Of a DNA stretch of 64,000 nt, positions 4,588-47,500 are shown piece by piece. The stretch comes from an uncultured delta proteobacterium (GTDB lineage Bacteria; Desulfobacterota; Desulfovibrionia; Desulfovibrionales; Desulfovibrionaceae): positions 62,001 through 126,000 of the forward strand of contig LT599018.1 in NCBI GenBank assembly GCA_900079685.1, written 5' to 3'. A model generated the notes under the pieces. The model saw only the letters and a program-made list of their open reading frames with translations, made no database searches and had not been told where the DNA came from. A program made the translations under genes and the position numbers. The stretch's first letter is position 1. Each line of letters starts with the position of its first letter.

Positions 4588-5451
4588 ATGCGGACAGTGT
4601 ACGATATCATCGCGGAGTTGCAGCGGACGAGTGACCTGAACAGGCTTACCCGGCTGGATAACGGCGTTGTTTTCGAGGAGCCGCTCGTCGGCGTGGCGAG
4701 CGGGCACGACCCGCTGTTCGCCGAGTACAAGTCCATTATCGGGGAGTTTCACCTGACGCCCGAGGAAGTTATCCGGGGCCGGGCCGGGGAAGGCCCCCTC
4801 GCGTATCTTCCCGGCGAACTCAGCGTCATCTGCTGGGCGCTTCCCTTTGCCCCGCATATCAAGCAGTCCAATGCCAGGAAGGAAGTGTGGTCATCCGTCA
4901 AATGGGGCCATGCATACGATACCGGAGAGGCGTTCAACAATCTCGTGCGGCGGACGCTGGAAGAACATTTCGCATCGCAGGGGATCCTCGCGGTCGCCCC
5001 GGTTGCGTCGGCCATGTGGCGGCGGATAGAAGACCTGCCCGGCGGCCACACCTCCAACTGGTCGGAGCGCCACGCGTTGTATGCGGCGGGGCTCGGCACC
5101 TTCAGCATCAATGACGGTTTCATTACCGACAAGGGCATGGCCATGCGGTGCGGGAGCATTGTCGTGAACAAGGCGCTTCCCGTTTCGGAAAGGCGCCACA
5201 CCGACCACAGGGCCAACTGCCTTTTTGCGGCCAAAGGGATTTGCGGCAAATGCATGGAGCGCTGTCCGGCCTTTGCCATAACGGCTGCCGGGCATGACAA
5301 GGTACAGTGCAGGCGCTACAGGGAAAAGCTGTTCGGCGACTTTTTGCACGATACGTGCGGCCTGGATGTCCGGATGGATTTTTGCGGGCTCTGCCAGACG
5401 GGCATCCCGTGCGAGTCCGTCAACCCCATGAAGAAATTTCAGGAACTCTGA
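4588..5451 (+). CDS. QueG-like 4Fe-4S protein
   Basis: 287-residue iron-sulfur protein resembling the ferredoxin half of epoxyqueuosine reductase. The C-terminal third carries CGKCMERCP plus later cysteines in CRRY, DTCGLD, FCGLCQ and IPCES, enough for two [4Fe-4S] clusters. The family pattern of an N-terminal cobalamin-type domain is only loosely recognisable, so substrate and reaction are unassigned. The start at 4588 is chosen over an upstream ATG at 4546 because AAGGAG sits at the right distance before it. It is the last gene of the ftsH-folP-cdaA-cdaR run, 59 bases after cdaR. Confidence 0.7.
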   Translation: MRTVYDIIAELQRTSDLNRLTRLDNGVVFEEPLVGVASGHDPLFAEYKSIIGEFHLTPEEVIRGRAGEGPLAYLPGELSVICWALPFAPHIKQSNARKEVWSSVKWGHAYDTGEAFNNLVRRTLEEHFASQGILAVAPVASAMWRRIEDLPGGHTSNWSERHALYAAGLGTFSINDGFITDKGMAMRCGSIVVNKALPVSERRHTDHRANCLFAAKGICGKCMERCPAFAITAAGHDKVQCRRYREKLFGDFLHDTCGLDVRMDFCGLCQTGIPCESVNPMKKFQEL

Positions 5452-5475
5452 GTAGTGCCGGAAAAATGAAACAGC

Positions 5476-5666
5476 AAGACGCCCGCCGATACCGGTGGGC
5501 GTCTTCAGGCTGATGACAAACCCCGCAAAGCCGGGGTTTGTAAAGGCACGCTCGCTCCGGCGTTTAACGGCGGGAATGAATCCCGCCTACGCCTACGCGG
5601 CGGGCCGTTGCCAAAGAAGACTTTGTCAACGGCCTCAAGACGCCCGCCGATACCGGTGGGCGTCTT
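5476..5666. repeat. Five consecutive hairpins flanked by an identical 30-bp repeat
   Basis: Five stem-loops follow one another: 5476-5505, 5516-5541, 5569-5587, 5603-5634 and 5637-5666. The first and last are identical 30-bp copies (9-bp arms aagacgccc/gggcgtctt) 161 bp apart. The second has 10-bp arms. The fourth has 8-bp outer arms with a 5-bp inner stem. The element lies between two convergent genes, so part of it probably ends transcription from both sides. The number of hairpins and the exact duplication exceed what a simple terminator needs. Confidence 0.85.
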
Positions 5667-5685
5667 GTGATTATAGTCGTTTTTT

Positions 5686-7167
5686 TCAGTCTTCCCAGAA
5701 AATGCGCAGTACCTCCGCCGGGGCGGGCCGCCCCAGGCGGATGCCGATCCAGAACGCCCCGAACGAGAGCAGAAGGGTCGGCACGATGGGGTGCAGGCCG
5801 AACACGGGGATTTTGGTGACGGACAGGAACATGAAGATGCCGAGCCCCGCCATGATGGAAAAAAGCGTCCCGGCCGCGTTGGCTCTTTTCCAATAAAGGC
5901 CGAGCACGATGGGCCAGAGAAAGACCGCTTCCAGGCCGCCGAAGGCGAACAGGTTGATCCAGACCAGAAGATCCGGCGGCCGGAACGCGGCCAGAAAGAC
6001 CAGGACGCCGACGACCAGGGTGCACCCGAAACTCATGCGGGTGATGCTGCGCGGCTGGATGCGGGTCGTGTCGCCCTTGAGCGTATAGCGGATGTACAAG
6101 TCTTTCACGATGGCGGCGGAAACCAGGAGCAGCATGCTGCTCACCGTGGACATGATGGCCGCCAGCGGGCCGGCCACGAACACGCCGGCCCAGAACGGGG
6201 GCAAGAGCTGCACGGTCAGGGTGGGCATCACGAGGTCTGGGATTTTGAGATCCGGCAGAACGGCCCTGCCCAGGGTACCGGTCAGGTGCGCGCAGAGCAG
6301 CAGGAAGCCGATGATGAAGGTGCCCATAATCATGGCGTTATGCATGGCGCGGGAATCCTTGTAGCCGAAGCAGCGCTGCACCGTCTGCGGCAGACCGAGG
6401 ATGCCGAGACCCACCAGAATCCAGAAAGAGAAGAGGAACGGGTTGGGAATCTTGCCGCCCGCGCCGTTGGGCGTGAGCAGGCCCGGATCAATGGATTTCA
6501 GCGTCTGTACGCACTGCGTCATGCCGCCACCCGCCTTCAGAACGGCCAGGAGCACCACCACGGCGGCGATGAGCATGACGACGCCCTGCATGGCGTCGGT
6601 TACGGCCACGGCCCGGAACCCGCCGAACGTGGTGTATACGATGACGCTTATGCCGAAGATGAACAGGCCTATCTCGTAGGAATAGCCCGTAACCGCCTGG
6701 AAGACGCGTCCCCCGCCGATGAATTGGGCCAGCATGGACGCCATGAAAAAGACGATCATGGCGACGGAGCAGATAATGACGACCGCGTCGCTTTTATACC
6801 GTGCGTGGAGGAAATCGACGATGGTCACGCCGTTGATTTTACGGCCGATGATGGCGAAGCGCTTGCCGAGGACGCCGAGCGTCAGGAAGGTCGTGGGCAC
6901 CTGGATCATGGCCAGCAGCACCCAGCCGAAACCGAGGGCGTAGGCGATGCCCGGCCCGCCCACGAAGCTGCTGGCGCTGGTATACGTCGCGATGATGGTC
7001 ATGGCCAGCACGAACGCGCCCATGGAGCGGCCGCCGATGAAATATTCCTCCAAAAATCCTTTGGTGTCGGTTTTTTTCGCCACATAGCGGCGGCACCACA
7101 CCGCAAGAAACATGGTGAGCGCGATGTACCCGACGACCGGGATAAGAATGATGACGCGGTCCATCAT
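5686..7167 (-). CDS. panF: Sodium/pantothenate symporter
   Basis: Inner-membrane Na+:solute symporter of 493 residues with about 13 hydrophobic helices. It closely follows the known E. coli PanF pattern, including EYFIGGRSMG, ATYTSASSFVGGPG and GWVLLAMIQ near the N-terminus. It imports pantothenate, the precursor of coenzyme A. The frame remains open for 58 codons further upstream, but the start at 7167 (ATGATG) is preferred. That start is interleaved with the yhdT stop codon, and the extra 58 residues are arginine-rich antisense-like sequence. Confidence 0.93.
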   Translation of the reverse strand: MMDRVIILIPVVGYIALTMFLAVWCRRYVAKKTDTKGFLEEYFIGGRSMGAFVLAMTIIATYTSASSFVGGPGIAYALGFGWVLLAMIQVPTTFLTLGVLGKRFAIIGRKINGVTIVDFLHARYKSDAVVIICSVAMIVFFMASMLAQFIGGGRVFQAVTGYSYEIGLFIFGISVIVYTTFGGFRAVAVTDAMQGVVMLIAAVVVLLAVLKAGGGMTQCVQTLKSIDPGLLTPNGAGGKIPNPFLFSFWILVGLGILGLPQTVQRCFGYKDSRAMHNAMIMGTFIIGFLLLCAHLTGTLGRAVLPDLKIPDLVMPTLTVQLLPPFWAGVFVAGPLAAIMSTVSSMLLLVSAAIVKDLYIRYTLKGDTTRIQPRSITRMSFGCTLVVGVLVFLAAFRPPDLLVWINLFAFGGLEAVFLWPIVLGLYWKRANAAGTLFSIMAGLGIFMFLSVTKIPVFGLHPIVPTLLLSFGAFWIGIRLGRPAPAEVLRIFWED

Positions 7168-7490
7168 GCACCTTCCCTGTCCCCGGACGCGGAGGACGAC
7201 GGCGCGGCATTGCGCGGCGCATCGCTCTCCCTGCCGTTTTCCCGCGCATCCAGCGGCATGTCGGTAAACGAGATCCGGATCACAACCCAGAGCAGAAACG
7301 TGACCACGGGGTAGCCGACCACGCAGCTGTAAAAAAACCACGCCGGCATGCCGAAGACATAGGAGTAATGTTCCGGGTCACCGCTGCCCAGGCCGAAGGC
7401 AAAGAGCGTCCACCAGAGGAAAAAGAAGCCGTACATGCCGAGGGCGATGAGCGCCTCACGGTTGGCCTGCCTGAATCGGTTGTTCATCAT
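7164..7490 (-). CDS. yhdT: YhdT family small membrane protein (DUF997)
   Basis: 108-residue protein with two hydrophobic helices (around residues 13-33 and 48-72) and a polar, low-complexity C-terminal tail. In many proteobacteria a YhdT protein is encoded immediately before panF. Here the stop codon overlaps the panF ATG, which indicates translational coupling and probably a two-component transporter or an assembly factor. No biochemical role is established for the family. Confidence 0.85.
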   Translation of the reverse strand: MMNNRFRQANREALIALGMYGFFFLWWTLFAFGLGSGDPEHYSYVFGMPAWFFYSCVVGYPVVTFLLWVVIRISFTDMPLDARENGRESDAPRNAAPSSSASGDREGA

Positions 7491-7625
7491 CGGGTATCCA
7501 TTTGCGTTAAGATGCTGGAGTGTTCACTCCGATGTTCGCAAGGATGTGGTAAAATCCTTGTCGCCGAATGGAAGAAGGAGCGGGATGCACCTGGCGTTAC
7601 GCGATTTTTGACGCGGCAAGCCGCC

Positions 7626-9563
7626 TCAATAGATCCTCTCGAACCGCTTGGCACAGGTCTGACAGGGAAGGTCGGGATCGCCCGCGGCAAGTCGCTGCCT
7701 GAAAACCGCGTAATCTGAATCGGCCCAGATGTCCAACGGTTTCTTCTCACGGACGGAACCGAAAACGCGGCGGCAGGGATCGTTTTCTGCCGTTGGCAGG
7801 TTGACATAAATGCAGGGGGAAACAGCGCCGTCGGCATCGATATACATGCAGGTCTGGATGTGTTCGTTGCAGTCGTTGCGTCCGGTTTCCCCCGGCAGGG
7901 AATAATGGAGCGCACGGCCCATGGACGCGGCTTTTTGGGCGGCATCGTGCAGCAGGCGCCGCGCTGCTTCTATTTTTTCCGTTTCGCCGGGGGCGTAAGC
8001 GTCTTTTTCCATGCCCGGAGCGGCAATATAGTCGAGCGTGCTGACGACGGCCACGGGAATATCGAGCGCCTCCATAAGTTCCGGCAGTCTCCCGGCATCT
8101 TCGTATTGCGAGGCCAGCATGAGGTAGGCGAGATGGACGCGCGGCAACGCGCTTTTGGCCCGCTGTTTCGCCGCGTTCAGATTCAGGATGCCTTCCCGGA
8201 CCTTTGCGAACGGCACGCCGTCCCGCGCCCGGTTGCTCGCCTCGTCAACGCCCGTTAGGGAAAACGCCACGATGTCCATGCCGCTGGCAACCAGCCGCGC
8301 CGCGACGTCATCGGTAACGGCCAGGCCGTAAGTGGTTGTGGAAACCGCGCTGCCGACGCGTATCGCGGCGGCGGCATAATCGAAAAAGCGCGGGTGCAGA
8401 AGCGGCTCTCCCCAGCCTTGCAGGTGCACACGGTCCGCGGCGCGGATCAGGGGCGCCAGGGCGGCATAGGTTTCGTCCTCCATGCGGCGCGAGCGCCAGA
8501 CAGCCTGCTTGGTCGTATGCGGGCAGTATGCGCACCTGCCGGGGCATTGGGAGGTGACTTCCACCTGCAGGCAGGCAAACGGCCTTTTTTCTCCCGTCAG
8601 AAAACGGCGGAAGGTCTCCTTGAGGCCCGGGGGGGTAAACACGGCCAAGGGGTCTTTTGCGGCGGACGATGCGCCCGTCTCGTCCGTCGCGGCGTTCGGG
8701 GCGGCGGTTTGCCGGGTATTCCCGCCCGCCGCCCGCATCTCCCGGTTCCAGGAAGTCTGTATGCAGGGCAGATACAGGGCGTTGCCCCATTTGCGTTTGA
8801 ACGCCGCGATTCCCTCGTTGATGCCGAGGCCCAGGTTGATGTACTGGTGCCCGTTTTCCTCCGCCCGGCGGACAATGGCCCGTAAAAGGACGTCCGCGAC
8901 GCCGGGCGGGCAATCGCTGCTCCTGAACGCGAACATGTAAAAGGCCGTGGTCAGGCTGGAAAAGTCACCGACGGCGAAACCAAGCAGGCGCGCGGCGCGC
9001 GTATCCCGCGCCGCGAAAAGCGTTGCGCCGGGCGTGGCGTCGAGATACCGGGGAATGTGGGCGTAAATCTGCCGCGTCCCGGCTTCCAGCGGGCGGGAGG
9101 CCAGGTAGGATTGCACGAGCGCGCCGTGCTCGTCCGTCCATGATTCTTCGGTAACGGCGCATTCGCGTTCCCCCCGGCGGAGCATGTTGCGCAGGTTCTG
9201 GCCGGGAGGGGCCGGGGGCAGGGGAAGGAAGGCGTACGCGTCCGCGCGGGAGGCGGCGTCCGCCGGGGCTTTTTGCGGGCGGGCCGGGCCGAGTACCGTC
9301 AGGGAGATGCAGGAAGGGTCCGCAAGCGATGCGGCAACGGCTTCGTCCATGGCTTTGGCGGCCTGGTCCGTTGCGCCGCCCAGGCAGCATTCTGGCGTTG
9401 CTCCGGGCTCGTAAGCAATAAGCGTCCTTTGTCCCTCGTAATCGTATGCCACGCAGCCGCCGCAGAGAACGGGCCGCGAGCCGCCGACAGCCGTCACGTA
9501 GCTGATGATCTGCTCCGGCACCAGGGCCTGGGCGGTGATATGGGAAAATCCCCGGCTGAACAT
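7626..9563 (-). CDS. GNAT/FemAB-like domain fused to radical SAM/SPASM-like enzyme
   Basis: 645-residue two-part protein. Residues ~1-300 look like a GNAT or aminoacyl-transfer fold, ending in the motif GLGINEGIAAFKRKWG seen in that superfamily. Residues ~325-560 form a radical SAM domain whose cluster motif CPGRCAYC begins at C340 (CxxxCxxC), with the LQGWGEPLLHP glycine-rich SAM motif. The C-terminus has further cysteines (CNEH, QTCMY, SPCIY, CQTCAKRF) compatible with a SPASM-type auxiliary cluster domain. A proline/alanine-rich linker joins the halves. It is monocistronic between panF and a divergent Sua5-like gene. Substrate unknown; a combined carbon-radical and acyl- or aminoacyl-transfer chemistry is speculation. 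Confidence 0.75.
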   Translation of the reverse strand: MFSRGFSHITAQALVPEQIISYVTAVGGSRPVLCGGCVAYDYEGQRTLIAYEPGATPECCLGGATDQAAKAMDEAVAASLADPSCISLTVLGPARPQKAPADAASRADAYAFLPLPPAPPGQNLRNMLRRGERECAVTEESWTDEHGALVQSYLASRPLEAGTRQIYAHIPRYLDATPGATLFAARDTRAARLLGFAVGDFSSLTTAFYMFAFRSSDCPPGVADVLLRAIVRRAEENGHQYINLGLGINEGIAAFKRKWGNALYLPCIQTSWNREMRAAGGNTRQTAAPNAATDETGASSAAKDPLAVFTPPGLKETFRRFLTGEKRPFACLQVEVTSQCPGRCAYCPHTTKQAVWRSRRMEDETYAALAPLIRAADRVHLQGWGEPLLHPRFFDYAAAAIRVGSAVSTTTYGLAVTDDVAARLVASGMDIVAFSLTGVDEASNRARDGVPFAKVREGILNLNAAKQRAKSALPRVHLAYLMLASQYEDAGRLPELMEALDIPVAVVSTLDYIAAPGMEKDAYAPGETEKIEAARRLLHDAAQKAASMGRALHYSLPGETGRNDCNEHIQTCMYIDADGAVSPCIYVNLPTAENDPCRRVFGSVREKKPLDIWADSDYAVFRQRLAAGDPDLPCQTCAKRFERIY

Positions 9564-41052: not shown

Positions 41053-42258
41053 CTACTTCCCCAACGCCCGCAGCAAAATACTGATGGGATGCGCGGCCGC
41101 CAGGCCGCTGCCGTGCCGCATCTGCACCCGGCACGTTCCGCACTCGGAAGCGGAAAGCGTGGCCTTGCTGTCTTTCATGGCGTTAAAAAGATCCGTCCCG
41201 ACCGCCATGCCGATTTCGTACTTTCCCGTTTTAAAGCCGTAGCTTCCGGAAATGCCGCAGCAGCCCGCGTCCATATCCGCCACGTCAAGGCCGGGGATCA
41301 TGCGCAAAAGATCCAGGCCGACGCGGCCCGTGCCCTGGGCGCGCAAATGGCAGGGCGCGTGGTAGGCCAGGCGTTTGTCCGGCACGTTTGCCCCGTCCGG
41401 ACGCAATGTTCCGTCACGGACAAGATCCATGATGAACTCGCACCCGTCGACGACGTTCGGCGCATGATCCTCAAGGTCTTCGTCGGGGAAAAGATCCCGA
41501 TACTCGTGCTTGAGCATGAGGGCGCAACTCGGGCAAGCCGTCAGGACGGGAATGCCCCGGCGCGCCCAGCGGCCGAGTTCCATGGTGTTGATCCGGGCTT
41601 TGTCCCGCGCGTCGTCGGCGTATCCCCCGGCGACCATGGGCAGGCCGCAGCATTCGAATTCTTGAGGGACAACGACGGTGTATCCGGCCATTTCCAGCAC
41701 CCGGATAAGGTCGAGGCCCATTTGCGGGTCGTAATAGCGGATGAAGCAGCCGGGGAAGAACGCCACGGTTTTTTCCGTGACCGGCGTTTTCCGTTTCGCG
41801 TCCAATTCCCGCCGCTTCCCCAATGGGCCGAACGCGGGCAGCGGCGCGCGCTTTTCTATGCCCATGGCGTGCATGGCAAAGCGGGAGATGGGGTTGTTCA
41901 TGCCGAAATTCAGCGCCCAGGCGGGAGCGATAGCGCTCAGTTTGCCCAGATCGCCGGAATGGGCGAGCAGCCAGTCGCGCAGGGACTGGGGGTTGTTTTT
42001 GCAATACGCGGCTCTCGCCAGCATGTTGAAGGTGGCCACCGGCACGCCCGACGGGCAGGAGATATCGCAGTTTTTGCAGTTGGAGCAGTATTCGAGGGAG
42101 GCTTCATCGCCGAACCCCAGAAGGCGGAACCGCTCGTACGCGGGCCCGGTCAGTTTGGGGCCGCGGAAGTTCATGGTGGCTTTGGCGACGGGACAGTGGG
42201 CCACGCAGATGGTGCAGGCCGTACAGGCGTCCGGGGTATGGAAAGAGTTGGGTTTCAT
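41053..42258 (-). CDS. glpC: Anaerobic glycerol-3-phosphate dehydrogenase subunit C
   Basis: 401-residue membrane-associated iron-sulfur subunit. Two ferredoxin-type cluster motifs lie near the N-terminus (CTACTICVAHCP and CSNCKNCDISCP). Two CCG domains follow, with CCGLPM and CCGISGSYG. It passes electrons from the GlpA/B flavoprotein to the quinone pool. The start at 42258 follows GAGG; the frame is open ~80 codons upstream into the antisense of the previous gene and is not used. It begins 17 bases after the fused glpAB gene. Confidence 0.94.
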   Translation of the reverse strand: MKPNSFHTPDACTACTICVAHCPVAKATMNFRGPKLTGPAYERFRLLGFGDEASLEYCSNCKNCDISCPSGVPVATFNMLARAAYCKNNPQSLRDWLLAHSGDLGKLSAIAPAWALNFGMNNPISRFAMHAMGIEKRAPLPAFGPLGKRRELDAKRKTPVTEKTVAFFPGCFIRYYDPQMGLDLIRVLEMAGYTVVVPQEFECCGLPMVAGGYADDARDKARINTMELGRWARRGIPVLTACPSCALMLKHEYRDLFPDEDLEDHAPNVVDGCEFIMDLVRDGTLRPDGANVPDKRLAYHAPCHLRAQGTGRVGLDLLRMIPGLDVADMDAGCCGISGSYGFKTGKYEIGMAVGTDLFNAMKDSKATLSASECGTCRVQMRHGSGLAAAHPISILLRALGK

Positions 42259-42275
42259 CGTAGCGACCTCAATGC

Positions 42276-45221
42276 TTACACCAGGGTTCCGGCAAAGTGG
42301 CCGGTGGCAAGGGCGACGCCGCTGCCGGATTTTTCCGAGGCAAAGTCGTACCCGCCAAGGCTGCGGCCCACGAAATGCACGTTGTCCCACAGCCCGGCCG
42401 CGCCGGGGCCGAGGGGATTCAGACGGCCGTTGACCGCGACGCCCAGGACGGCAAAGGGATGGTTGCCGTGCCCGAAAAATTCCGGGCTGGACCAATCGTC
42501 CTGCACCGGCGGAACGGGGATGGGCAGCTTGAAGATGGCTTCCGTCGCTTCCCCGGGCCTGGTTTTGACGCCCTCGCTGAACAGCCCGCCGGTTGCGATG
42601 ATGAACGAATCCGCCCGGTATTCGCGCTCTTTGTCGGGCATGGCCGTGACCAGCGCGCGGCAGCGGCCGTTTTCGATGACGGCTTTGGTCACTGTCGCGT
42701 TTTCCACAAAATGCACGCCGCGCAAGCGCAGCTCTTGCATGAGCGCCCGGTGCATGCGCAGCCCTGTGACGGAGGGCGGCGGGCAGAACAACTCCACGAT
42801 TTTCCGCTTCGTCGCCTGTTCAAGCCGGGCGTGGACGGCGCTGCCGGGTTTGGTGCCGAGGATGGTGGGCAGCAGGATGCACGCGGCGTCGCTCCGGATC
42901 CCGGCAAGGGAGCGCTCCAGCCAGTCAAAGCCTTCGGGGGAATCCAGGAAGGAGGCAAGGTCCAGGGCCGTGGTATCCCGGACGGTCACGCCCTTTTCGC
43001 CGAACGGGGAGGGAATGTGCTTGTGTTCCAGCCGTTTCCCGGCGAACTGCGGCCACAGTTGCAGGCCGGATGCCGCCAGCTGCGGGGAAAAGTCCTTCAT
43101 GCCGGTTATGCCGACGACCACAAAGGATTCCGCCTCGCGGACGGTCGCCGGGTTCATGCTCTGCCCGGTAATCCAGGTGGGCTTCATGGTCCCGGCCGCC
43201 GTGGGCAGCCAGGCGTTGCCAGTCGTTTCCGACCCCGCCCGGAGCATGGCGCCGCCCTGGCGTTCCATGACGTCGGCCAGGAAGTCCAGGGCGTCGCGCA
43301 CCGCCTCCGGGCCGACTATCCGGTACGGATGGCCGGGCGCAAGGCGCTCCATGGCGGCAAAGGGGTTGCCGGTCACTACCTCCTGACCCGCGAAACCCAG
43401 AATATCCACCGTGCCGCCGCCGATGGTCAGCGCGCCGCCACCCCGGTTGATGACGAGCACGCGTTTGCCGCGCCCGGCCGCCGTCGCCGCCGCGATAAGG
43501 CCGGAGAACCCGGCGCCCACAACGACCGCGTCATAGCCGTCCCCGGTATTCGGGGCGGCGGGGGCCGGGGTGCGGGCCTTCACGGGGTGGAAGGGTTGCG
43601 GTTCCTCGCAGGGCGGGAACGTCCCCTCGCTGTGGCCATCGATGTTGAGGGTCGCGTCGTAGATGCCGCGTTCCAGTTCTATTTCTTTCAGTTGCGTTCC
43701 CCAGAGCAGGGGGCGGATGCCGCCCCAGCGCTCCTGGAGAAATTGGCGGAACAAGGCGCGGGGGGAAGCGTCCGGGATAAGGGCGTTTTCCACCAGGGCG
43801 CCGGTGGCGCGCAGCGCGCAAAAGCTCCCCTGGCAGGTCCCCATGCCGAGGCGGGTGCGGCGGCGGATATCGCCGAGCGAATGACTGGTCGGTTCCGAGG
43901 CCACGGTTTCAAATTCCGCCAGGGTTACCATCTCGCATTCGCAGAGCAGCAGCTTTTTCCAGGGGTTTTCTTCGGAGGCCCTGACGGCGAGCTCCAAATC
44001 GTCGCCAAGGCGGGAGACGGCCAGGCGCGTGCCTTCGGAAGGGAAGAGTTTCGTGGCGCGTTTCATGAGGTGTTCGTCCGGCGCGGGAACGATGCTTTCC
44101 TCGGCCGTGCGGCAGGGCGCGGTTACGCCGAGTTTGGCCGCCGCCTTATCGACGGTTTTTTCGGCCATCAGCCGGAATGAGGTGAACTTGCCGCCGGTGA
44201 CGGTGAGAAGGCCCGAGAGGCCTTCCTCCTCATGGTCGATGATGACGAAGTTGCGCGTCGCGGCGCGGCCCGTGGCGGCAGAAGGGGAGTACAGCGGGCG
44301 CGTTCCGGCAAAGGCGCGCAGCATGCGGTAGTCCCGGATTTTCGGGAACAGGGGCTCGCCTTCCTTCAGAAGGTAGAGCACGTCCTCGCTGCGCGGGCGG
44401 GTGTCGTCGGGCCTGTCCGTGGGGATGGACGTGGTGCCGAAAATGACGATGGAGCCGTGCGGCACGAAAATATCGCCGTCCGACGATTTGCGCAGACGGT
44501 TGACAACCCGGTTGGTAAAGCGGTGGTTGAAGGCAAGCAGCGTTCCCCTGTCCGGGGAGACGGAAACCGCGATCCCCGCGAGGGACGCGACCTCCCCGGC
44601 CCAGGAACCGGTGGCGTTGATGACCATTTCACAGGGGACGGTTTCCTTTTCGCCGGTTTTGCCGTTTTGCAGCGTCACGCCGGTGACCGCGCCGTTCACG
44701 GAGTTGATGGCGACAACCTGGCAGTAGGTGCGGATAGCGCCGCCGTAGCGCCGGGCGGACATGACGTTGTGCCAGACGAGGCGGAAGCCGTCCACGGCGG
44801 AATCCGGCACGCGGTACACGGCTTCGGCGTCCGGGCTGAGGTTGGGTTCGCGGCGCAGGGCCTCGGCAAGGGGCACTTCTTCCACTTCGATGCCGCAGGC
44901 GCGGCAGGCGGCGATCCAGCGCGGCTCGAACGCGGGATCATCGCCGGGGGTCCGGACGAAATACCCTTCGGTTTCTTCCACGCAGGATTTTCCGATCCGG
45001 CGCAGGATCGTGTTTTCCCGGATACACTCTTTGGCGGCTTCCGGGTCGTTCACGGCATAGCGCGCGCCGCTGTGCAACAACCCGTGAAAGCGCGAGCTCG
45101 TGCCGGAGGCAAGATCCGCTTTTTCCACAAGGAGGGCGGGAATCCCGCGCATGGAGAGATCCCGCAAAATTCCCGTGCCGGTTGCGCCGCCGCCGATGAC
45201 CACGACCCGAACATGTTGCAT
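42276..45221 (-). CDS. glpAB: Fused anaerobic glycerol-3-phosphate dehydrogenase GlpA-GlpB
   Basis: 981-residue protein joining two subunits that are normally separate. Residues 1-~540 are GlpA: FAD motif VVVIGGGATGTG at the N-terminus, the DAO-family substrate region, and a BFD-like [2Fe-2S] domain with CECEMV and GTCQGSFC. A proline/alanine linker (~545-560) leads to GlpB: a second FAD motif VVVGAGFSGLIAAATAAGRG near residue 563 and a complete GlpB body ending in SGSGVALATGHFAGTL. No stop or frameshift interrupts the junction. The enzyme oxidises glycerol 3-phosphate to dihydroxyacetone phosphate. The start at 45221 has GGAG upstream; ATG 45236 is possible. Confidence 0.93.
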   Translation of the reverse strand: MQHVRVVVIGGGATGTGILRDLSMRGIPALLVEKADLASGTSSRFHGLLHSGARYAVNDPEAAKECIRENTILRRIGKSCVEETEGYFVRTPGDDPAFEPRWIAACRACGIEVEEVPLAEALRREPNLSPDAEAVYRVPDSAVDGFRLVWHNVMSARRYGGAIRTYCQVVAINSVNGAVTGVTLQNGKTGEKETVPCEMVINATGSWAGEVASLAGIAVSVSPDRGTLLAFNHRFTNRVVNRLRKSSDGDIFVPHGSIVIFGTTSIPTDRPDDTRPRSEDVLYLLKEGEPLFPKIRDYRMLRAFAGTRPLYSPSAATGRAATRNFVIIDHEEEGLSGLLTVTGGKFTSFRLMAEKTVDKAAAKLGVTAPCRTAEESIVPAPDEHLMKRATKLFPSEGTRLAVSRLGDDLELAVRASEENPWKKLLLCECEMVTLAEFETVASEPTSHSLGDIRRRTRLGMGTCQGSFCALRATGALVENALIPDASPRALFRQFLQERWGGIRPLLWGTQLKEIELERGIYDATLNIDGHSEGTFPPCEEPQPFHPVKARTPAPAAPNTGDGYDAVVVGAGFSGLIAAATAAGRGKRVLVINRGGGALTIGGGTVDILGFAGQEVVTGNPFAAMERLAPGHPYRIVGPEAVRDALDFLADVMERQGGAMLRAGSETTGNAWLPTAAGTMKPTWITGQSMNPATVREAESFVVVGITGMKDFSPQLAASGLQLWPQFAGKRLEHKHIPSPFGEKGVTVRDTTALDLASFLDSPEGFDWLERSLAGIRSDAACILLPTILGTKPGSAVHARLEQATKRKIVELFCPPPSVTGLRMHRALMQELRLRGVHFVENATVTKAVIENGRCRALVTAMPDKEREYRADSFIIATGGLFSEGVKTRPGEATEAIFKLPIPVPPVQDDWSSPEFFGHGNHPFAVLGVAVNGRLNPLGPGAAGLWDNVHFVGRSLGGYDFASEKSGSGVALATGHFAGTLV

Positions 45222-45646
45222 CACACACTCCTGCATTGCGCGGTTGGTTCAGAATAAGAAGCCGAGACGTATACCAAAAAACTGGCCCAAGGTCAGCCCC
45301 TTTGCAATGAGTATCATAGTTGTAATGTGGTGTACTCCGCCGGGTGGGAGGGAAGCGGGGTGAAAAAATAAAGAGGAAAAAATTTTTTAAACAACAAATG
45401 TATGATATTTATATAAAAAAATTATTATTTTTCCGTGAAAAAATAAAACAGTAAAAGATTATTGCCGAAAAGCGCATGAAGGCGTACACAGCTGGCATCC
45501 CTTGCCGCCGGGAAATCCTTGTTGTTCAAGTGAGCAAAAAGAGGTACTTTAGAGAGTAACGTTCAGGCACATTCGTATTTTGCAACAAAAGTATATGGAT
45601 ACGCGCGGATAGGCGCGGAAGAGAAACCACTTTAGCGAGGTGTACG
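45222..45646. other. Divergent regulatory region glpAB/pckG
   Basis: 425 bases between divergent genes. Positions about 45360-45480 are strikingly AT-rich against a GC-rich background. A near-palindrome TTGTTCAAGTGAGCAA is at 45522-45537 (one mismatch in 7-bp half-sites) and is a candidate operator. Its spacing does not match the TTGTGA-N6-TCACAA sites of CRP/HcpR-type regulators. No gene or riboswitch seen. Confidence 0.55.
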
Positions 45647-47500
45647 GTGAAAACGAACTGGACTGCCAAAAAGACCAACAACAAGAAACTGATCGCCTGG
45701 GTCGAAGAGATCGCCGCCCTGTGCCAGCCCGACGAAATTTATTGGTGCGACGGGTCCGAGCGTGAAAAAGACAAAATGAACCAGATGCTGGTGGATGCCG
45801 GCACCTTTATCCCGCTGAATCCTAAAAAACGCCCCGGTTCCTTCCTGGCCCGGTCCAATCCGGCCGACGTCGCCCGCATGGAACACCGGACCTTCATCTG
45901 CTCCGAAAAAGAAATTGACGCCGGTCCCACCAACAACTGGGTCAACCCCAAGGAAATGCGCAAAAAGCTGAACGGGCTGTTCAAAGGCTGCATGAAGGGC
46001 CGTACCATGTACGTGATTCCTTTCAGCATGGGCCCGGTCGGTTCGCACATCGCCCAGATCGGCATTGAAATCACCGACTCCCCCTACGTTGTCGTCAACA
46101 TGCGCATCATGACCCGCATGGGCCAGAAAGTGCTGAACGTTCTGGGCGATACGGGCTTTTTCGTTCCCTGCGTGCATTCCGTCGGCCAGCCCCTGAAAAA
46201 GGGCGAAAAAGACGTGGCCTGGCCCTGCAACACGGAAAACGTGCACGTCGTGCACTATCCGGAAACCCGTGAAATCTGGTCCTTCGGCAGCGGTTACGGC
46301 GGCAACGCCCTGCTCGGCAAGAAGTGCCTGTCCTTACGTATCGCGTCCGCCATGGCGCGCGACGAAGGCTGGCTCGCCGAGCACATGCTTATCGTGGGCA
46401 TCGAAAATCCGGAAGGCGAAAAGACCTACGTGGCCGCCGCCTTCCCCAGCGCCTGCGGCAAGACCAACCTCGCCATGCTCATCCCGCCCAAGGGCTTCAA
46501 GGGCTGGAAGATCTACACCGTGGGCGACGACATCGCCTGGATCAAACCCGGCAAGGACGGCCGCCTCTATGCCATCAACTCGGAAGCCGGTTTCTTCGGC
46601 GTGGCCCCCGGCACCTCCGAAAAGACCAACCGGAACGCCCTGGCCTCCTGCTCCAAGAACACCATCTTCACCAACGTGGCCCTGACCGACGACGGCGACA
46701 TCTGGTGGGAAGGCATGACGAAAGAAGCGCCCGCGCACCTTATCGACTGGAAAGGCCAGGACTGGAAGCCGGGCTGCGGCCGCGACGCGGCGCACCCCAA
46801 CTCCCGCTTCACCGCGCCGGCTTCCCAGTGCCCCAGCATTGACCCGAACTGGGAAAACCCGGCGGGCGTGCCCATCAGCGCCTTTATCTTCGGCGGGCGG
46901 CTCAGCAAAAACGCGCCGCTGGTATATGAATCCTTCAACTGGTCGCACGGCGTGTACATGGCCGCCACCACCGGGTCGGAAAAGACCGCCGCCGCCGACG
47001 GCCAGGCGGACATCCGGTACGATCCCATGGCCATGCTGCCGTTCTGCGGCTACAACATGGGCGACTACTTCGCGCATTGGCTCGCCATGGGCCGCACCGT
47101 GCCCAAGCCCCCGGCCATCTTCAAGGTCAACTGGTTCCGCAAGGACGAAAAGGGCCACTTCATTTGGCCGGGCTTCGGCGACAACCTTCGCGTGCTCAAG
47201 TGGATCGTGGACCGCGTGCGCGGCCGCGCGGCCGCCGTTGAAAGCCCGCTGGGCAGGATGCCGTATTACGAAGACCTGACCTGGTCCGGCCTGAAGTTCA
47301 CCAAGGAAGAATTCGCAAAGCTGTCCACCATCGAAAAGACGGCCGGTCTGAAAGAAGCCGAAGGGCAGAAGGAATTCATGGGCCAGTTCGCTAAGATCAA
47401 GAAGCTGCCGGAAGAGTTCGAACACGAGCAGCGCCTCCTGGCCCTGCGCCTTGAACGTTCCGCCGATTCCTGGGCGGTTCCCGAGAAGACCAAAAAGTAA
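45647..47500 (+). CDS. pckG: Phosphoenolpyruvate carboxykinase (GTP)
   Basis: 617-residue GTP-dependent PEPCK interconverting oxaloacetate and PEP. The GTP-binding kinase-1 loop carries the hyper-reactive cysteine in SACGKTN (C270-N274). Metal/substrate residues are in [11 protein letters not shown] and the following [17 protein letters not shown] and WRS-type residues complete the active site. Length matches the GTP class, not the ATP class. GTG start with GCGAGG upstream. Direction of flux (gluconeogenesis or anaplerosis) depends on physiology. Ends with a strong terminator. Confidence 0.96.

Follow-up and report, generated by a model that had tools for sequence, protein, structure and literature searches.

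The fused glpAB locus and its neighboring genes

The window (the whole stretch of DNA that was analyzed, 64,000 nucleotides, from a bacterium related to sulfate reducers of the gut) encodes on its minus strand a fused glpAB gene (42276..45221; 981 aa), a single open frame that begins with the ATG at 45221 and joins GlpA to GlpB, followed on the same strand by glpC (41053..42258; 401 aa). The uninterrupted GlpA–GlpB frame claimed in the original prediction is borne out, as the minus strand is open from 45236 to 42276. The upstream end of this frame is the first ATG, at 45236 (986 aa), and the stop codon occupies 42276–42278; the 981-aa start at 45221 is preferred over that at 45236 because an AGGAG motif stands six bases 5' of this second ATG. 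Residue numbers for the fused protein refer to the 986-aa frame unless stated otherwise. The plus strand opposite glpC and glpAB has antisense open frames at 41089–43386 (765 aa) and 42297–44180 (627 aa); long antisense open frames are common in G+C-rich coding DNA.

glpC begins 17 bases downstream of glpAB, with GAGG upstream of its ATG, and encodes two CxxCxxCxxxC and two CCG motifs. The GlpC profile scores, taken on an extended frame of 455 aa, are 418.1 against a cut-off of 278 for NF008369, and 285.5 against 279.9 bits for TIGR03379. The divergent neighbor of glpAB encodes a GTP-dependent phosphoenolpyruvate (PEP) carboxykinase (45647..47500, plus strand; NF003253, 986.5 bits), which is not a part of the enzyme. 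PEP carboxykinase (GTP) is also encoded near glpAB–glpC in a g11 genome, in differing arrangements (locus L034, from 2417; locus L057, 7750–8994).

The enzyme had been proposed to be a two-gene glpAB–glpC system, which holds for this locus, where the fused chain is followed by glpC, but not for the genome as a whole, which also encodes a second, split glpA–glpB pair (L051, G000:C1:864000-880000, at 4931–9202). The Fe–S gene that follows this second pair is closest to HmcF/TmcB/DsrK, with scores below the cut-offs of those models; its presence in place of glpC suggests a different electron route for the second pair. A glycerol kinase gene is located elsewhere in the genome.

Domain architecture and predicted structure

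The fused protein comprises two complete flavoprotein subunits with a BFD part between them, as had been proposed, with both subunit models (TIGR03377 and TIGR03378) matched above cut-off. The GlpA half (43635..45221, minus strand; residues 6–534) contains a DAO-type FAD domain and a C-terminal helical/BFD part, and scores 686.4 bits against the TIGR03377 cut-off of 552.8 (residues 11–534). The GlpB half (42279..43538, minus strand) has a flavin-binding fold of the fumarate-reductase/ketosteroid-dehydrogenase type, assigned by TIGR03378 (237.7 bits vs. a cut-off of 174.15; residues 568–982), Pfam FAD_binding_2, and fold matches; every PRK05329 sub-model among the GlpB matches listed falls below its own cut-off. 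GxGxxG motifs are present in both halves, at residues 15 and 574. There is no Pyr_redox_2-type NADH oxidase domain at the C-terminus; the best Pyr_redox_2 stretch spans residues 10–216.

GlpA carries a predicted BFD-like [2Fe–2S] cluster site (43815..43946, minus strand), with a C-x-C ... C-x4-C arrangement formed by Cys 432, 434, 468, and 473, all four of which are invariant across nine aligned fused proteins. The Pfam BFD model alone scores 20.2, below its gathering score of 26; TIGR03377 covers the same region. In five proteins of genus g19 (L037–L041), a long insert separates the CxC pair of the BFD motif from the CxxxxC pair, and the insert carriers among the nine aligned fused proteins are G077, G130, G106, G055, and G094.

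The two halves are joined by a Pro/Ala-rich linker of ~33 residues (43539..43634, minus strand), delimited by alignment, junctions, and predicted local confidence (pLDDT), and variable in relatives; its position lies close to the junction originally placed at 43530–43590. The nine fused proteins align end to end, and most of their length differences fall within the linker and a single BFD loop. In this alignment the junction ranges from ~33 residues (the window) to ~80, and is often Pro/Ala-rich.

An AF2 model of the whole chain, based on 79 aligned rows, has a mean pLDDT of 93.2 and a pTM of 0.91, with the linker in blocks of pLDDT 70–80. The GlpA half of the model superimposes on GlpD (2qcu) with a Z of 37.9 (3.5 Å over 472 residues). 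In a fold search with the whole model, the matches listed were all to the GlpA half, and GlpB was therefore modeled alone (pLDDT 91.6); its fold matches are ketosteroid dehydrogenase, urocanate reductase, and flavocytochrome c3, with Z of about 20–21. Two GlpB stretches (residues ~597–606 and ~917–926) are confident in the fused model and not in that of GlpB alone; these stretches could face GlpA, a reading weakened by the different alignment depths of the two models. A sequence search of the PDB (E up to 1e-5) found no solved GlpA or GlpB, and its matches were eight distinct sequences, all to the GlpA half: GlpD, GlpO, glycine/sarcosine-oxidase types, and one unnamed exported protein.

If the fused chain were cut in the linker, or GlpB were also made alone by internal initiation, the enzyme would still consist of two separate chains. 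The variable sequence of the linker, which is among the less confident inner stretches of the model, is compatible with this, as is an in-frame GTG in the linker with GAGGAA 18 bases upstream (by eye); but 18 bases is too distant for a usual ribosome site, and the linker has no in-frame ATG, and we regard two-chain assembly as unlikely. As a single chain, GlpAB would have the linker tether GlpB where the separate subunit would sit. The 1:1 GlpA:GlpB stoichiometry claimed at the outset follows directly from the single frame, and the fusion likewise fixes co-localization; a kinetic benefit might also result.

Distribution of the fusion

Among 149 sampled genomes of Desulfovibrionaceae, 115 match the fused protein at E 0.001, many weakly, and nine encode both halves in a single stop-free frame (the window's genome, two of g11, and six of g19). 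Two other candidates in the family (G031, G037) proved to be split when read stop to stop. In genus g19, both halves are in one frame in 8 of 15 genomes, another (G155) has the pieces on two contigs, and the remaining six have weak matches only, five of these six being <90% complete.

With alignment A1 as query, a scan of the collection yielded 148 confirmed relatives, and the 80 best were retained for reading; with the single window protein as query, it found no relative. Stop-to-stop reading of these best 80 of 148 identified 20 fused frames (L056–L073, L108, L109), each in a record titled Desulfovibrio or Desulfovibrionaceae. A further three, labeled Desulfovibrionaceae in the tree, are split (L075, L076, L131), and the other 57 include no fusion. 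No glpC is seen downstream of the fused glpAB in the DNA examined at L058 and L059, the latter of which adjoins a glycerol kinase gene.

With overlaps counted once, the 20 loci, G130, and the window's genome make 22 distinct genomes with a fusion, the closest two proteins of which (L067 and L068) are 93.6% identical. The titles of these genomes include an iMGMC bin, the isolates OttesenSCG-928-I05 and An276, and many bins, such as Kf353, Pc512, Roe453, and Nm470. We take iMGMC to be a mouse-gut catalog, and An276 and OttesenSCG-928 to come from chicken and cockroach, respectively; other bins with codes of the same style as the four named are presumably termite samples. The four named codes are those of lower-termite samples, according to the accessible text of PMC11707648.

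That an assembly or sequencing error merged two genes has a practically negligible probability: open fused frames occur in 22 distinct genomes from several differently titled projects, and the junction varies among them in sequence and length. The GlpA–GlpB fusion in the window is genuine and inherited, not an artifact.

Beyond the family, genomes with matches at E 1e-60 numbered 73, 43, 20, and 32 in four phylum samples (395 genomes of the window's phylum; 398, 398, and 396 of the others), from searches that scored at most two candidates per genome, such that a second, weaker copy could be missed. Among the matches listed, the only fusion is that of the window's genome, where for rows without stop-to-stop reading the split status is that of the reported frames. 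Thirteen regions from other families and Firmicutes with reported frames of 930–1056 aa were considered as fusions and found to be split; stop-to-stop reading of these and three more (16 regions) revealed no open frame that spans both halves. In the Pseudomonadota and Actinobacteriota samples, no GlpA and GlpB match shares a reported frame among the matches listed, and reading the sequence of ten regions whose frames were long or unequal revealed no fusion. At five loci of other families (L213, L215, L216, L217, L218), glpA and glpB share a reading frame, and a single stop codon separates their open stretches. In a plasmid collection, 606 records have matches, none at >60% identity, and the 20 matches listed are all in two pieces.

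The fusion is thus neither unique nor widespread: the fused frames identified by sequence are confined to Desulfovibrionaceae among the genomes sampled, a family that had been guessed correctly at the outset.

Two probable origins of the fusion

In a tree of both halves (56 rows; sparse columns removed, and the linker not covered by either domain alignment), the fused proteins form two groups: F1 (15 rows, including the window) and F2 (6 rows, including An276). Two changes between fused and split are forced by well-supported branches of this tree. Forcing all fused rows into one clade costs 49.6 log-likelihood units (p-AU 0.00026; 47 rows, nine dropped), a p-value that, like those given below for transfer, is weakened because the groups were chosen after seeing the trees, with the tests run on quick trees. 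A GlpA-only tree agrees, and a GlpB-only tree recovers the same two groups. Because the fused proteins fall into two groups and a single clade is rejected, we infer that the fusion probably arose twice within Desulfovibrionaceae. Each fusion would have formed from adjoining glpA and glpB genes; in split relatives, these two genes overlap or are almost contiguous. In the six split Desulfovibrionaceae junctions for which DNA was read (L044–L047, L049, L075), the start of glpB lies within glpA or at its extreme end.

One ancient fusion in Desulfovibrionaceae, re-split in several lineages with no second origin, is an improbable alternative. It would be in keeping with the GlpB-only tree, in which the starred branches do not force two changes (the least number of forced changes for split is one), and tree-based change counts do not distinguish gains from losses. 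However, one clade is rejected when both halves are used, the F1 and F2 linkers appear unrelated by eye, and each re-splitting would have to create both a stop and a start anew, in the overlapping layout that other split relatives share with the outgroup Sporomusa (L078).

A likely transfer of a fused cassette

Host lineages were assigned by one gene, rpoB, which was found in 27 of the 30 genomes in which it was sought (none in G158, G162, or G172); the tree has 25 rows, with the short fragments of G170 and G174 left out. All four F2 hosts with an rpoB sequence belong to a single lineage. The F1 hosts fall into two: the first comprises the window's genome, g11, and g19, and the second comprises Desulfovibrio bins (G161, G163, G164, G169) in a clade with split relatives (G040, G145); a single F1 host clade is rejected (p 4.8e-66). 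In the gene tree, the five putative recipients of a fused gene are nested inside genus g19. Placing F1 minus the recipients in one clade is rejected (p 8.9e-5), as is joining the recipients to five split sequences of the Desulfovibrio lineage (p 3.4e-51; both with 40 rows). No other match to the fused protein was found in the five recipient genomes.

The gene order DctQ–DctM–HAD–glpAB–glpC, in one direction, is present in four of the five recipients and four of the eight g19 genomes. The cassette is incomplete in the remaining recipient and four g19 genomes, in some cases owing to a contig end: in g19, G077 and G130 have the HAD gene and no TRAP genes in the DNA examined there, G118 has glpK inside the gene row with no glpC seen, and G152 starts at a contig edge. 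In split relatives (L044–L047, L053), the HAD gene is directed away from glpA. TRAP (DctQ, DctM) and HAD-IIA phosphatase genes were observed upstream of glpAB and codirectional with it at L060, L061, L063–L066, L072, and L109; by their location beside glpAB, they may serve the uptake of a phosphorylated or carboxylated substrate.

The recipient rpoB lineage is separate, yet the fused gene is nested in g19 with mostly the same gene order, a pattern suggesting that a cassette already fused was transferred, apparently between gut bacteria, into the Desulfovibrio lineage from termite-type samples. The recipient genomes are metagenome bins from such samples; an exonuclease III gene follows the cassette in four of the five and in none of the g19 loci examined, and these different flanks argue against mis-binning.

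Proposed function

The GlpA–GlpB fusion, together with GlpC, very probably constitutes an anaerobic, membrane-associated sn-glycerol-3-phosphate dehydrogenase that was fused from adjacent genes in Desulfovibrionaceae, probably twice, with one fused version having moved horizontally. Its activity is best read, from the relationship to the E. coli enzyme, as that of an ordinary anaerobic glycerol-3-phosphate dehydrogenase in which GlpA and GlpB are tethered. By analogy with E. coli GlpABC, the electron scheme of which is summarized in the accessible text of PMC11962113, glycerol 3-phosphate would be oxidized to dihydroxyacetone phosphate at the GlpA FAD, with electrons passing from this FAD via the BFD [2Fe–2S] cluster to the GlpB flavin, and from there via the GlpC clusters to the quinone pool.

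A changed role for the fused enzyme, such as another substrate or electron acceptor rather than plain glycerol 3-phosphate oxidation, would fit with the second, split GlpAB in the genome and with the TRAP transporter and HAD-IIA phosphatase genes at many relatives' loci. Nevertheless, the GlpA, GlpB, and GlpC matches are all at equivalog level, and a glycerol kinase gene lies beside the fused locus L059; we consider a changed role very unlikely. For the ordinary dehydrogenase, a tentative and somewhat doubtful extension is that the fusion is a convergent adaptation of gut Desulfovibrionaceae, with two origins and not in the other lineages sampled, that spread between genera in termite guts as a TRAP–phosphatase–glpAB–glpC cassette for glycerol phosphates from host or diet.

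Comparison with known systems

The GlpA half shares its fold with the aerobic glycerol-3-phosphate dehydrogenase GlpD (2qcu), which is not known to have a GlpB or GlpC partner. The split glpABC systems of Bilophila (L075), other Desulfovibrionaceae, and Sporomusa (L078) are among the closest sequence relatives (GlpA of split relatives is mostly ~59–64% identical to that of the window; 52% in G047), but have separate, often overlapping genes where those of the window are fused. E. coli GlpABC has all three subunits in the same order and with the same kinds of motif; GlpA and GlpB are separate chains in E. coli and a single chain in the window, a difference of architecture that is outside the family models.

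The closest printed case found, in the accessible text of PMC4450592, is a GlpA-like domain joined to an NADH-oxidase-like flavoprotein in Eggerthella and Giardia. Like the GlpA of the window, the GlpA-like domain of these fusions (Eggerthella, Giardia/Entamoeba) is fused C-terminally to a flavoprotein; as set out in the same text, the partner is a pyridine nucleotide-disulfide oxidoreductase (with DUF1667 in Giardia), whereas that of the window is GlpB. A search of the open-licence literature, exact phrases included, found no description of a GlpA–GlpB fusion in its accessible text, nor is one described in the accessible portions of PMC2702500, PMC11962113, PMC4450592, PMC5114695, or PMC11707648. 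As far as this literature shows, the GlpAB fusion is a previously undescribed form of a known enzyme. Being a single chain by nature, GlpAB lends itself readily to resolving the electron path from FAD via the BFD cluster to GlpB, and its two likely origins and one likely transfer offer a modest natural experiment that bears on the reasons for subunit fusion in respiratory enzymes.
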